From Maritimibacter dapengensis (GTDB lineage: Bacteria; Pseudomonadota; Alphaproteobacteria; Rhodobacterales; Rhodobacteraceae): 64,000 nt of DNA. The stretch spans positions 372,001-436,000 of the forward strand of contig NZ_JAHUZE010000003.1 in assembly GCF_019218265.1 (NCBI RefSeq), in the 5' to 3' direction. Positions 1,945 through 42,837 of the stretch are shown piece by piece. The translations under genes were made by a program, and so were the position numbers. The notes beneath the pieces are model-generated. The model had not been told where the DNA came from. It did no database searches and saw nothing but the letters and a program-made list of their open reading frames with translations. Position 1 is the first letter of the stretch; each line of letters starts with the position of its first letter.

Positions 1945-4891
1945 CCCCAGCCCGATCCCCCGCGTGTTCGCTCAAGCACCCGGCGTTGACTTTCCCAAAG
2001 CTGTCGTCGATGGCCTGCGCAAGCGACTGTCGGATCAACCACCCGAAGCGATGTCCCGCGTCACGCTGTTTGTGAACACGACGCGGATGGCACGGCGTAT
2101 GGCTGCCCTCTTCGATGAGGGCGAAGCGAGTTTGTTGCCCCGGATCCGGCTCATAACGGATCTTGGTCAGGATGCGTCCATGGCCGACCTGCCGCCCGCA
2201 GTCTCACCGCTCAGACGTCGACTTGAAATTTCGGCGCTTGTCTCGCGGCTGCTCGAAAGTCAGCCCGACCTTGCCCCGCGCGCAGCGATCTATCCTCTGG
2301 CCGACAGCCTTGCGCGGCTCATGGACGAAATGCAGGGCGAGGGCGTCCACCCGTCGGATTTGAGAGAGCTCGACGTTTCGGGACATGCCGACCATTGGAG
2401 ACGGAGTCTGGCGTTCGTTCAGGTCGTCGAGCGCTTCTTCGGTGCGGACGGCGATGAGCCGCCGGATCTGGAGGCACGTCAGCGAATGGTGATCCAGCGG
2501 CTGGTCGACAATTGGGGCGAGACGCCGCCGACCAACCCGGTCATTGTTGCAGGTTCGACCGGATCCCGTGGCGCGACTCGCATGTTCATGGAGGCGGTCG
2601 CCATGCTGCCGCAGGGTGCTTTGATCCTGCCCGGCTTCGATTTCGATTTGCCGCGATCTGTCTGGAATTCGATGAAGACCACGCTTACCGCGTCCGATCA
2701 TCCGCAATTTCGTTACCGGTCGTTGATGGACGCGATCGGTCTGACACACAGCGACATTCGAACGTGGCATTCCGTCGACGCACCCGCGCCGCGTCGCAAC
2801 GCATTGGTGTCACTTGCCCTGCGCCCCGCACCGGTCACGGACCAATGGCAAGAGGAAGGGCCGGCATTCGAAGGCGTCGAACAGGCAACGAAGGGACTGA
2901 CCCTTATCGAGGCGCCATCGCCGCGTGCCGAAGCTGCATCCATCGCGCTGATCCTGAGGCAGGCCGCTGATGCAGGTCGGACGGCGGCCCTCATCACGCC
3001 GGATCGCGTTCTCACGCGACAAGTGACGGCCGCGCTCGATCGCTGGGGCATTCGACCCGACGATTCGGCTGGTCGCCCTCTCCCGTTGTCCGCTCCAGGC
3101 AGATTGCTGCGCCACGTTTCTGACATGCGGGGAAGAACCTTGTCAGGTGTCGATCTGCTGACCCTTCTCAAGCACCCCCTGACCCATTCGGGTGCAGACC
3201 GTGGCGATCACCTTCGTCTGACACGCGACCTCGAGCTTGAAGCGTTGCGCAAGAACATGCCCTTTCCAAATGAGCGAAACCTGTTCGATTGGGCAAAGCA
3301 CAAGGAGGATCGTGGGCCTTGGGTCAAATGGATCGTCTCTATTCTAGCTGAACTCGCCGATTCAAGCTCGGATGCCTTGACCGATCACGTCACACACGTG
3401 ATCGACATTGCCGAAAAGATCGCCGCTGGATCCGCGGCCAGTGGCAGCGGTGGATTGTGGGAGAGAGAAGCCGGGAGAGAGGCCGCACACATTTCGGGTG
3501 AATTGATGCGCGAGGCGGAACACGGTGGTGATATGTCGGTCGCGGACTTCCATAGCCTGTTCACCGGCGTTCTGAACCGAGGAGAAGTGCGCGACCCGAA
3601 TGAACCGCACCCTTTGATCCGAATTTGGGGGACACTGGAGGCCCGCGTTCAGGGGCTAGATCTCGCGATCCTCGCCAGCCTGAACGAAGGTGTCTGGCCC
3701 GAGAAACCTGGCGCAGACCCTTGGATGAACCGCGACATGAGGGACAAAGTCGGGCTCTTGCTCCCGGACCGGGAGATCGGCCTTTCCGCGCATGACTTCC
3801 AACAGGCCATCGGTGCGCCGGAAGTCGTCCTGACACGGGCGACCCGTGACGATGAAGCCGAAACCGTTCCGTCACGTTGGATGAATCGGATCACTTACCT
3901 TTTGCAGGGCATGTCGAACGAAGGCATGGCTGCGTTGCAGGGGATGCGTGATCGCGGAAACGCCTGGCTCACGCTCGCGCGGCGTCTGGATGCGCCGCAG
4001 GAACATGTGCATCGCAAGCCGCAAGCGAAGAGACCTGCACCAAGACCGCCTGTGGCTGATCGCCCGCCCGATCTGAGCTTCACCGAAGTCGCGAAGTTGA
4101 TCCGCGATCCATATGCGGTTTATGCAAGCCGGATTCTTTGTCTCAGGCCGCTTGACCCGTTGCATCAGGAGCCTGATGCCGCCCTGCGCGGAACTGCAAT
4201 TCACGATGCGCTGGAACGGTTCGTAAACGAACGGGTCGAAGGTGAAACGCCCGTCGAGCAGCGTTCGCGCCTATTGCAGACCGCGCGCGACGTATTCGAG
4301 GAAAAGGCACCCTGGCCTGCTGCGCGATTGATGTGGCTAGCGAAGCTCGAAAGGGCGGCCGACGCATTTCTGGCTGATGAGGCGACCCGCATGAACGCGG
4401 CGAGAACAATCTTCACGGAGCAGAAAGGGCGAGCACAGATCGGCCCGAACGGGTTCATCCTGCACGGGCGCGCGGACAGGATCGACCGGCTGAACGATGG
4501 AAGCCTTGCCATTTACGATTACAAGACCGGTTCGGTGCCGACAAAAAAGCAGCAGCTGGCCTACGACAAGCAGCTTCTGCTGGAAGCGATGGTCGCGCGG
4601 CACGGTGGTTTCGAAAACGTCGGTCGCGCCGCGACGTCCATGGTCGCCTATATCGGTCTGGGTTCTGACGCGAAAACCACCGAAGTTCCGGTCGACATTG
4701 ATACGCTGGATCGCATTGAAGAGGAATTTGTCTCTATCATTGCCGAATTTGGTGTTCGGAGCCGCGGATACGAGTCCCGCCGTGTCGTTTTCCGAAGCAG
4801 CGCCCAGTTCGCTGGCGACTTCGACCATCTCGCCAGGTTCGGGGAATGGGACCACAGCGACGCGGCGCACGCGGAGGATGTCGGGGGATGA
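1937..4891 (+). CDS. addB: Double-strand break repair protein AddB (helicase-nuclease subunit)
   Basis: The 984-residue protein matches the alphaproteobacterial AddB family: an inactive UvrD-like fold ending in a RecB-type nuclease domain. The nuclease motif is near the C-terminus as GRADRIDRL and IYDYKTG, which carry the metal-binding Asp and Lys. Together with AddA it resects double-strand breaks, as RecBCD does in enterobacteria. I start at the ATG at 1937 (MFDPSPIPRVF) because it overlaps the murU stop and begins the conserved region; the frame is also open upstream inside murU. It ends in an ATGA overlap with addA. Confidence 0.92.
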   Translation: MFDPSPIPRVFAQAPGVDFPKAVVDGLRKRLSDQPPEAMSRVTLFVNTTRMARRMAALFDEGEASLLPRIRLITDLGQDASMADLPPAVSPLRRRLEISALVSRLLESQPDLAPRAAIYPLADSLARLMDEMQGEGVHPSDLRELDVSGHADHWRRSLAFVQVVERFFGADGDEPPDLEARQRMVIQRLVDNWGETPPTNPVIVAGSTGSRGATRMFMEAVAMLPQGALILPGFDFDLPRSVWNSMKTTLTASDHPQFRYRSLMDAIGLTHSDIRTWHSVDAPAPRRNALVSLALRPAPVTDQWQEEGPAFEGVEQATKGLTLIEAPSPRAEAASIALILRQAADAGRTAALITPDRVLTRQVTAALDRWGIRPDDSAGRPLPLSAPGRLLRHVSDMRGRTLSGVDLLTLLKHPLTHSGADRGDHLRLTRDLELEALRKNMPFPNERNLFDWAKHKEDRGPWVKWIVSILAELADSSSDALTDHVTHVIDIAEKIAAGSAASGSGGLWEREAGREAAHISGELMREAEHGGDMSVADFHSLFTGVLNRGEVRDPNEPHPLIRIWGTLEARVQGLDLAILASLNEGVWPEKPGADPWMNRDMRDKVGLLLPDREIGLSAHDFQQAIGAPEVVLTRATRDDEAETVPSRWMNRITYLLQGMSNEGMAALQGMRDRGNAWLTLARRLDAPQEHVHRKPQAKRPAPRPPVADRPPDLSFTEVAKLIRDPYAVYASRILCLRPLDPLHQEPDAALRGTAIHDALERFVNERVEGETPVEQRSRLLQTARDVFEEKAPWPAARLMWLAKLERAADAFLADEATRMNAARTIFTEQKGRAQIGPNGFILHGRADRIDRLNDGSLAIYDYKTGSVPTKKQQLAYDKQLLLEAMVARHGGFENVGRAATSMVAYIGLGSDAKTTEVPVDIDTLDRIEEEFVSIIAEFGVRSRGYESRRVVFRSSAQFAGDFDHLARFGEWDHSDAAHAEDVGG

Positions 4892-40820: not shown

Positions 40821-41420
40821 ATGCCTGCAGACCTGATCCTTGCCTCCGGGTCCGAAATTCGTGCCACGCTTCTTCGGAATGCAGGGCTTACGTTCTCGGT
40901 CGTGCCCGCGCGAGTCGATGAAGAGTCGATTCGGGCGGGGATGGAGGCAGAAGGCGCAAGTCCGCGGGACATGGCCGACACCCTCGCGGAATACAAGGCG
41001 CGCAAAGGCGGAACGAAGAACCCTGAGTCGCTGGTATTGGGGTGTGATCAGGTCGCAGCGCTTGGAAAGAACGTGCTGGCGAAACCTGCGACCCCCGACG
41101 AAGCATGCGATCAGCTTTCTCGGTTATCAGGAGAGACTCATCAGCTTTTGTCAGCTGCGGTGATCTATCACCAGAACGAGCCATTGTGGCGACATGTCGG
41201 CGTCGTACGCATGACGATGCGCGCTTTGAGCCAGTCCTACATCGAGGATTACGTGTCACGAAACTGGGATTCCATTCGGCATTCGGTCGGTGCCTACAAA
41301 CTCGAGGAAGAGGGTGTGCGGCTTTTCGCCCAAGTTTCGGGGTCTTACTTTGATGTACTTGGCTTACCGCTCATTGAACTGTTGTCCTATCTCATCGCAA
41401 GAGAAGAGGTGGCGATATGA
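40821..41420 (+). CDS. maf: Maf-family nucleoside triphosphate pyrophosphatase
   Basis: The 199-residue Maf/Ham1-fold protein has LILASGSEIRATLL at residues 5-18, VLGCDQV near residue 72 and WDSIRHSVGAYKLEEEG near 155. These fit the alphaproteobacterial Maf branch, whose signature differs from the SPRR motif of the classical Maf. It probably hydrolyses non-canonical nucleotides. It is the first gene of the maf-aroE-coaE-dnaQ run leaving the proposed origin and is coupled to aroE by ATGA. Confidence 0.9.
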   Translation: MPADLILASGSEIRATLLRNAGLTFSVVPARVDEESIRAGMEAEGASPRDMADTLAEYKARKGGTKNPESLVLGCDQVAALGKNVLAKPATPDEACDQLSRLSGETHQLLSAAVIYHQNEPLWRHVGVVRMTMRALSQSYIEDYVSRNWDSIRHSVGAYKLEEEGVRLFAQVSGSYFDVLGLPLIELLSYLIAREEVAI

Positions 41421-42250
41421 ACGAAGCAGGCAGGCCACTTGCGGCCGTGCTGGTTCCGCCGGGCGAAACCAGCGTGTTGCCGAGCGTATTCCGGGCCTGG
41501 TTCACTGCGACCGGAGTGCACGGACGTTACCTGCTTCTCGAAGTGATGCCCGAAGACTTGGAGCAGGTCATCGCGGCCTTGCCGAAAGCCGGTTTCATGG
41601 GGCTGCATGTCGCGCCCGCCTATCAGCATCAGATCATGGACGTTGTCGACATCATCACCGACCGCGCTGCGCTCATGTCGGGCGTCAACACCATCATTTT
41701 TCGTAAGGACGGAAAGTTTCACGGCGACAATACTGATGGGTACGGCTTCATCGAGAATCTGCGTCAATCGGTACCGGACTGGAATCCCAAGGCGGGCCCC
41801 GCTGCAATCTATGGCGCCGGTCGTGCTGCGCGGGTCGTGGTCACGGCTTTGATGGAGGTCGGGGTCGAAGAGATCAGGATAGCGTCGCGGAACCGACCGA
41901 AAGCTGAAATGCTCCGGCATGAATTCGGGTCCAGGATCAAGGTGTTCGATTGGTTGAAAGCAGGCAATCTTGCGGATGGTGCCGGGCTTGTCGTCAACGC
42001 AACTCCTTTGGGGCGTGAGGGAATGTCCGAATTCCGCGTGCCAATGGACGGGCTCGCTCCGGGGGCGGTCGCTTGTGACCTGACCATCAATCCTCCTGAC
42101 ACCCGGTTCTTGCGCCAATCGGCGGCGTATGGCTGTCGCGTGGCCGATGGGGTCGGAATGCTCCTCTATCAGGCGGCTCCAAGTTTCGAGCGCTGGTTCG
42201 GGCAACGTCCACCCGTCGATGACAATATCCGGCAGGCGTTGATGACATGA
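41417..42250 (+). CDS. aroE: Shikimate dehydrogenase-like protein AroE with a substituted active site
   Basis: The 277-residue protein keeps AroE length and fold: NTII near residue 86, DNTDGYGFIENL, a GAGRAARVVV cofactor loop, VVNATPLG and GVGMLLYQAAPSFERWF. At catalytic positions it departs from the family. The usual NVT.PHK segment reads HVAPAYQ (64-70), so the catalytic Lys is Gln70; the SxSP substrate loop reads SVLP (19-22); the Tyr of VYxP is Ile. Shikimate dehydrogenase activity is therefore doubtful. The locus, between maf and coaE with ATGA overlaps on both sides, is the normal aroE position. Confidence 0.8.
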   Translation: MNEAGRPLAAVLVPPGETSVLPSVFRAWFTATGVHGRYLLLEVMPEDLEQVIAALPKAGFMGLHVAPAYQHQIMDVVDIITDRAALMSGVNTIIFRKDGKFHGDNTDGYGFIENLRQSVPDWNPKAGPAAIYGAGRAARVVVTALMEVGVEEIRIASRNRPKAEMLRHEFGSRIKVFDWLKAGNLADGAGLVVNATPLGREGMSEFRVPMDGLAPGAVACDLTINPPDTRFLRQSAAYGCRVADGVGMLLYQAAPSFERWFGQRPPVDDNIRQALMT

Positions 42251-42837
42251 CCTTCATTCTCGGCCTGACCGGCTCCATCGGCATGGGTAAATCCACCACA
42301 GCGCAGATGTTCGCGGAAGAAGGTGTACCGGTCTGGGATGCTGACGCTGCGGTGCATCGGCTATATGCACGCGGCGGCGCGGCGGTCGCACCGATCCGTG
42401 AACTCTGCCCCGAGGCGGTCGTGGATGGAGCCGTAAATCGGCAGGCGTTGAAGGACTGGATCGCACGGGATAGCGCTGCTCTCGCCCAGATCGAAGCCGT
42501 GGTTCACCCACTTGTTGCACAGGATCGTCAGGCGTTCTTGACCGAAACCGACGCAGACATCGTGCTATTGGACATTCCGTTGCTTTTCGAAGGCGGCGGC
42601 GCGGCGGGTATGAATGCAGTCGTCGTTGTCACAGCGCCGTCTGACGTACAGCGCGCGCGCGTGCTCGACCGTGGCACTATGGACGAGGCGACGTTCGAAA
42701 CCATCTTGTCCAAACAAATGCCGGACGCCGAGAAACGCGATCGCGCAGATTACGTGATCGAGACGGTGACACTTGAGAAAGCCCGGGATGCCGTGCGATC
42801 AGTGCTCGAGGATATTCGAGGTAAATTGAATGCGTGA
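42247..42837 (+). CDS. coaE: Dephospho-CoA kinase
   Basis: The 196-residue P-loop kinase starts [19 protein letters not shown] (Walker A at residues 8-15). It then has [21 protein letters not shown] and [11 protein letters not shown]. It carries out the last step of coenzyme A synthesis. It starts in the ATGA of aroE and overlaps dnaQ by 8 bp. Confidence 0.96.

Follow-up and report, generated by a model that had tools for sequence, protein, structure and literature searches.

An altered shikimate pocket in the maf-locus AroE of Maritimibacter dapengensis and the probable displacement of this protein by a second AroE

The AroE encoded between maf and coaE in Maritimibacter dapengensis was found to have an altered shikimate pocket. 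The alteration is a genus-wide, selected change and not a strain defect, and the altered protein is a new variant within the AroE family. This syntenic ortholog very probably does not serve as the shikimate dehydrogenase of the genus. On balance, the home AroE was probably displaced by an acquired copy, aroE2, and then took on a new role, binding a dinucleotide and a ligand that lacks the carboxylate of shikimate. The enzyme AroE is widespread, tightly conserved, and a drug target, and it is annotated by similarity and locus; such annotation, and models built on it, would assign the wrong gene as shikimate dehydrogenase here. No report of this altered maf-locus AroE was found in the open-access papers searched.

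The window, that is, the whole stretch of DNA analysed, comprised 64,000 nt of M. dapengensis (GCF_019218265.1, contig NZ_JAHUZE010000003.1, positions 372,001–436,000, forward strand). Its aroE started with ATG and had no internal stop codon. The gene boundaries given in the initial annotation, the SVLP and HVAPAYQ segments, and the Ile in place of Tyr were all correct by the sequence and the family alignment (Table 1). The protein scored over the Pfam cut-offs for the AroE fold domains Shikimate_dh_N (PF08501), Shikimate_DH (PF01488), and SDH_C (PF18317). Its scores for the NCBIfam AroE equivalogs were below the cut-offs, at 274.7 vs. 295 for NF001312 and 169.3 vs. 200.2 for TIGR00507. The intact ortholog of another genus (L012) reached 416.9 and 240.0, respectively. 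The copy of genus member G003 was also below the NF001312 cut-off (280.8 vs. 295), and the altered copies of genomes G399 and G305, from two other genera, were still over it (297.1 and 312.2). The gene order mnmE-rho-maf-aroE-coaE-dnaQ, which is the ordinary one, was present in all seven genus members with the gene; secB lay outside the compared stretch in three members. A single-sequence AlphaFold model of the window AroE had a mean pLDDT of 42.5, too low for use.

Table 1. Features of the altered aroE and its neighbours, in window coordinates.
Feature	Position	Strand	Basis
maf; stop overlaps aroE start (ATGA)	40821..41420	+	ORF list, sequence
aroE, altered shikimate pocket, 277 aa, maf-coaE locus	41417..42250	+	ORF, translation, profiles, ortholog alignment
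SVLP replacing SxSP (carboxylate clamp); Leu21 at the S16 position, likewise Leu in 7/7 genus members	41471..41482	+	alignment
HVAPAYQ (residues 64-70) replacing NVTxPHK; His64 and Gln70 in 7/7 genus members	41606..41626	+	alignment
Asn91 (N86 equivalent), kept	41687..41689	+	alignment
Asp107 of DNTDG (D102 equivalent), kept	41735..41737	+	alignment
Arg136 in dinucleotide loop GAGRAAR; Gly in 113/113 intact family orthologs	41822..41824	+	alignment
INPP: Ile224 for Tyr of VYxP; Pro227 in 7/7 genus members, also in 7cok	42086..42097	+	alignment
Gln252 (Q244 equivalent), kept	42170..42172	+	alignment
coaE; start overlaps aroE stop (ATGA)	42247..42837	+	ORF list, sequence

The pocket was described by nine positions, for which we assumed the E. 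coli AroE numbering S14, S16, N59, T61, K65, N86, D102, Y215, and Q244. In the family ortholog alignment, S14, N86, D102, and Q244 were kept in the window AroE as S19, N91, D107, and Q252, and the other five were replaced (S16 by L21, N59 by H64, T61 by A66, K65 by Q70, and Y215 by I224). The catalytic pair of K65 and D102 was broken in all seven genus members and in G399, with Gln for the Lys and the Asp kept. Among the carboxylate contacts S14, S16, and Y215, the last being the Tyr of VYxP, which we take to be such a contact, only the first was kept in the genus; the second was Leu and the third Ile, Val, or Leu. The initial reading that DNTDG is kept was confirmed by the family alignment, Asp107 and also Asn91 being present. 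The cofactor loop, described there as intact, is not: the family GAGGAAR reads GAGRAAR, with Arg136 for an invariant Gly, Ser157 stands in place of the Asn of NRT, and Arg in place of Met200. Gly133, Gly135, and Arg158 were retained; the Arg of NRT is presumably the contact to the 2'-phosphate of NADP. Within the genus, the loop Gly position was Arg in 6/7 and Gln in 1/7, and NRT appeared as SRN, SRT, or ART in the altered copies. These substitutions make the predicted NADP binding less sure.

The likely effect of the Lys replacement was considered with mutant kinetics reported in PMC2789096. There, S14, S16, T60, K64, and N85 of Thermus thermophilus shikimate dehydrogenase hydrogen-bond shikimate. 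In the Mycobacterium tuberculosis enzyme, K69A lowered kcat 68-fold (0.73 vs. 50 per s), raised the Km for DHS 2.6-fold (76 vs. 29 uM), and raised the Kd about fourfold (134 vs. 32 uM; PMC2789096). By these kinetics, Q70 points to a loss of fast shikimate turnover and not of all binding. The residual kcat of K69A, together with the kept N86, D102, and Q244, would suit a protein that is still a shikimate dehydrogenase of low activity or in a side route. We regard this as improbable, since S16, T61, N59, and the Tyr are replaced as well, the window protein is under both equivalog cut-offs, and aroE2 is the sole AroE in another genome of the family (G391).

The distribution of the altered protein was investigated in the genus and the family. 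The window genus was represented by eight genomes, and seven had the altered maf-locus AroE, the six other copies being 67–71% identical to that of the window. The eighth genome, G006, is 81% complete and is without coaE too, so its missing aroE is probably an assembly gap. In all seven copies, Leu21, His64, and Gln70 were found and Ser19, Asn91, Asp107, and Gln252 were retained; position 66 was Ala in two and Ser in five. Among 82 family-conserved positions, 56 were retained in all seven members, 6 were fixed to a new residue, and 20 varied. L21, H64, Q70, V140, A219, and P227 were identical in 7/7, at positions where 73 intact family genomes show at least 95% conservation. G399, the nearest other genus sampled (one genome, 61% identity), had Gln70, Val224, and Arg136 and had lost SxSP; it kept Asn64 and Thr66 and had no His64. 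Lys was thus replaced by Gln in 8/8 copies from two sister genera. Sequencing error and decay in a single strain were ruled out by the seven genus members and G399.

Outside the genus, 113 of 115 family genomes, one per genus, had S, S, N, T, K, N, D, Y, and Q at the nine pocket positions; the exceptions were G399 and G305. The alignment with other genera proposed in the initial annotation therefore showed pocket changes fixed in the genus, a Lys-to-Gln change common to the sister genus, and an intact pocket in the 113 others, which include G362. The altered gene of G305 (L115 2395–3228, C34) had TSALP, NVAQPHK, DNTEG (Asp102 to Glu), GAGSTA, and Val for the Tyr, and it retained the Lys, which shows that the loss of this residue is not a general feature. 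These counts derive from 117 genomes outside the genus among 372 with a match to the window AroE, two of the 372 belonging to the window genus. The 117 were all 50 matches in G008–G060 beyond a fragment (G035, a C-terminal piece only) and 67 others, mostly high-scoring; the low-scoring tail of G101–G439 was left out. L166 (G024, 35% identical, Lys kept) and L167 (G029, gene split between two frames) were set aside, and L055 and L117 of G399 are one gene. L168–L180, consisting of 12 copies of other families and a second G027 copy, were counted apart, and Lys was present in 13/13.

The selection on the altered aroE was investigated by pairwise dN/dS. The closest pair, G003–G005 (90.5% amino acid identity), had a dN of 0.066, a dS of 0.98, and a dN/dS of 0.067; by domain, dN/dS was 0.043 (substrate) and 0.091 (NADP). 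The dN/dS of G002–G004 was 0.14. For the 21 genus pairs, a ratio was obtained from 18 (3 were incomputable) and ranged from 0.052 to 0.191; this range is uncertain, as dS was below 1 in one pair only and was 1.1 or more (rounded) in the others, mostly above 1.2 and tending to saturation. In G003–G005 and G002–G004, respectively, the values were 0.095 and 0.127 for maf, 0.11 and 0.15 for coaE, 0.135 and 0.147 for aroE2, 0.058 and 0.127 for dnaQ, and about 0.02 in both for rho. The altered aroE is under purifying selection, at a strength similar to that on its working neighbour genes. Neither mark of a pseudogene, a broken frame or neutral codon change, was seen: the frame was open in 7/7, and the closest pair gave the low ratio above.

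The rate of change was also compared. As a ratio to the distances of maf, coaE, and dnaQ, the AroE distance was 1.21 within the genus, compared with 0.64 for six intact genera and 1.37 between the two sets, and the stem of the altered aroE was long in two gene trees (0.55 and 0.45). Fast change, a long stem, and a low dN/dS are consistent with rapid change at first and a return of constraint afterwards. Some relaxation is present, given the faster evolution than in intact AroE. This faster evolution, the 20 varying positions, and the loss of the home gene in the genus of G391 could be taken as slow, functionless decay of a redundant AroE after the arrival of aroE2. Such decay is unlikely to be the explanation, as the full-length open frame persists in the seven members and G399, the 18 ratios are low, six positions are fixed to a new residue, and the ATGA start with the preceding purine-rich stretch is retained (by eye).

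The initial annotation had suggested another shikimate dehydrogenase elsewhere, and the genome search indeed found a canonical, aroQ-linked aroE2 68 kb downstream of the window AroE, as well as a third AroE-like gene. aroE2 was present in 8/8 genus genomes, at 69–77% identity in the seven others, and aroQ was adjacent in 8/8. aroQ also adjoined aroE2 in G399 and was about 1.1 kb away in G391; no aroQ was found within the 6.5 kb examined around aroE2 in G305 and G362. The residues S16, N59, T61, K65, N86, D102, Y215, and Q244 were present in 13/13 aroE2 products, and the S14 position was Ser or Thr (Thr in 8/13). aroE2 was over the TIGR00507 cut-off (240.3 vs. 200.2). In G391, aroE2 was the sole PF08501 protein, and in G399 the sole canonical one. 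Unless these strains are auxotrophic, and provided that aromatic amino acids are synthesised by G391 itself, aroE2 very probably performs the shikimate step.

aroE2 was patchily spread. In a scan of 394 family genomes, it occurred at an identity of at least 57% in only four genera outside the window genus (G399, G391, G305, and G362), and the other matches listed had at most 38% identity and E-values of 2.5e-44 or weaker; up to six first-look candidates were scored per genome, and 144 of the 394 genomes were named. This set is presumably that of the window-AroE scan, given its equal size and no new genome handles. In a class-level sample of 385 genomes, one of another family (G751, 52%) had aroE2 at E <= 1e-50. 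The aroE2 genes formed one deep clade in the tree, separate from the maf-locus AroEs. The patchy spread suggests horizontal arrival.

The third AroE-like gene (L002 1432–2310; G000 C2:1096 kb) is of the PRK12549 type, with K, N, and T of the pocket intact, and is divergent from a neighbouring ORF of TetR-like appearance. It is not favoured as the cause of release of the home AroE, because G399 is without it and G362, whose home AroE is intact, has it. Third copies of this type have the AroE fold and kept K, N, and T in 8/8, unlike the window AroE.

The fate of the home AroE was associated with aroE2. In the five aroE2-bearing genera, the home AroE was altered or missing in four; in the family genomes examined without aroE2, it was intact in 112/112 (Fisher p 7e-7, ignoring relatedness). 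It was intact in G362, gone in G391 and its congener G440, altered differently in G305, and altered at full length in the window genus and G399. A neighbour-gene tree grouped the window genus with G399 (100/99) and G391 with G362 (100/99), implying a minimum of two, and probably three, separate origins of the altered or lost states. These genomes form a natural experiment within one family, in which a second AroE is permissive and the old copy is left intact (G362), lost (G391 and G440), or rebuilt and re-fixed (the window genus, G399, and perhaps G305).

No maf-type AroE was found in G391 or G440. The slot between maf and coaE held a 77-codon ORF in G391 (L114, about 2811–3044), whose C-terminal half matched the AroE profile at 18.3 bits, and a 10-codon ORF in G440 (L230 1527–1559, by eye), too short to show descent. 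Each of these ORFs shared an ATGA with both neighbours, the maf stop on one side and the coaE start on the other, which looks like retention of the overlap coupling itself. An ATGA start of aroE was present in 15/15 genomes (seven of the genus, G399, G305, G362, and five outgroups) and an ATGA end in 13/15. The initial proposal that overlap with maf and coaE preserves the frame for coupling thus gains from the short ORFs in the genus that has lost the home AroE, and the same ORFs show that a full protein is unneeded for it. Retention of the frame solely for translation from maf through to coaE is very improbable as an explanation: 10 codons suffice in G440, and 277 codons under purifying selection at the amino acid level would be left unexplained.

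The relation of G305 to the window genus was examined by trees. The first gene tree joined them (SH-aLRT 85). When 24 pocket and near-pocket columns were removed, G305 left the group, and the group was placed with L056, L062, and L074 (96/91). Given this move, a common origin of the two sets of changes was not favoured and convergence is likely, although an AU test does not reject the joint clade (p 0.24). With some hesitation, and against the odds, it may be proposed that, after aroE2 arrived, the home AroE was converted on at least two separate occasions into a new sensor or NADP-linked enzyme, once in the window and sister genera (Lys to Gln) and once in G305 (Lys kept, Asp to Glu). The window genus and G305 would then have converged on TSxLP for HSxSP and on loss of T61 and the Tyr, that is, on a carboxylate-free ligand.

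For the window genus, we favour the following course of displacement and repurposing, whose order is our reconstruction. The common ancestor of the window and sister genera would have gained a canonical aroE2 beside aroQ, and aroE2 would have taken over the shikimate step. The home AroE may then have lost the catalytic Lys and the carboxylate contacts S16 and Y215, while keeping N86, D102, Q244, the dinucleotide-loop glycines, and the Arg of NRT. It would have been re-fixed under purifying selection as a putative NADP(H)-binding protein. The new ligand would most likely be polyol- or keto-sugar-like, without a carboxylate, and the new role that of an altered reductase, perhaps via His64 and Asp107, or of a non-catalytic sensor. 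The absence of His64 in G399 speaks for a sensor or for a His64-independent step. Of the initial suggestions, a new substrate or a regulatory role seems favoured by genus-wide fixation and purifying selection. The suggestions, tolerated loss included, are compatible: aroE2 made the change permissible, and the constraint that followed is best explained by a new role.

The altered protein was compared with known systems. Same-family AroEs at maf-aroE-coaE (NF001312/TIGR00507) share with it the locus, length, fold, N86, D102, Q244, the GxG loop, and the NRT Arg; the altered genus copies differ by K65 to Q, S16 to L, N59 to H, T61 to A or S, Y215 to I, V, or L, and the loop Gly to Arg or Gln. 5-Ketofructose reductase (PDB 7cok/7col), which belongs to the AroE family and acts on a substrate without a carboxylate, has likewise lost SxSP and the VYxP Tyr and has NPP, and both proteins retain N86, D102, and Q244. 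Its T61 position is Ser, as in 5/7 genus members, whereas the window AroE has Ala; it retains the catalytic Lys (PHK) and Asn59, where the window AroE has Q70 and H64. By sequence, 7cok was no closer to the window AroE than ordinary AroEs were (E 1.2e-28 vs. 5.4e-35 for 2egg), and trees, which did not include 7cok, placed the window protein among the maf-locus AroEs. The loss of the carboxylate contacts and the catalytic Lys, the retention of N86, D102, and Q244, and the 7cok parallel together favour a dinucleotide and a carboxylate-free ligand.

The AroE paralogs YdiB, SdhL, and RifI, with which the PRK12549-type third copies were grouped, have the AroE fold and a shifted substrate. The fungal quinate repressor QUTR/QA-1S is derived from shikimate-pathway enzyme domains and reused for regulation; it is a multi-domain protein, likened to the window AroE here by its general description. 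A catalytically dead regulator or sensor of this kind is possible but rather unlikely, and it overlaps with the favoured repurposing, which leaves catalysis open. Replacement of the Lys in the 8/8 copies, with the fold and part of the pocket kept, would agree with a sensor; the protein has no added domain, the gene order is ordinary in 7/7, and no partner is known.

Relatives were also sought more widely. A scan of viral contigs gave 27 pattern matches and no relatives. A genome-contig scan gave 24 stretches, with one distant relative from Gemmatimonadetes at 35% identity. In G029 (L167, C31:14380–15410), a window-type AroE lay in two pieces in different frames, due to either a frameshift or a misassembly. 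A window-AroE match at E <= 1e-40 was missing from 10 of the 347 near-complete family genomes, for example G235, G271, and G369, and G391 was among the ten. There may thus be further AroE replacements in the family.
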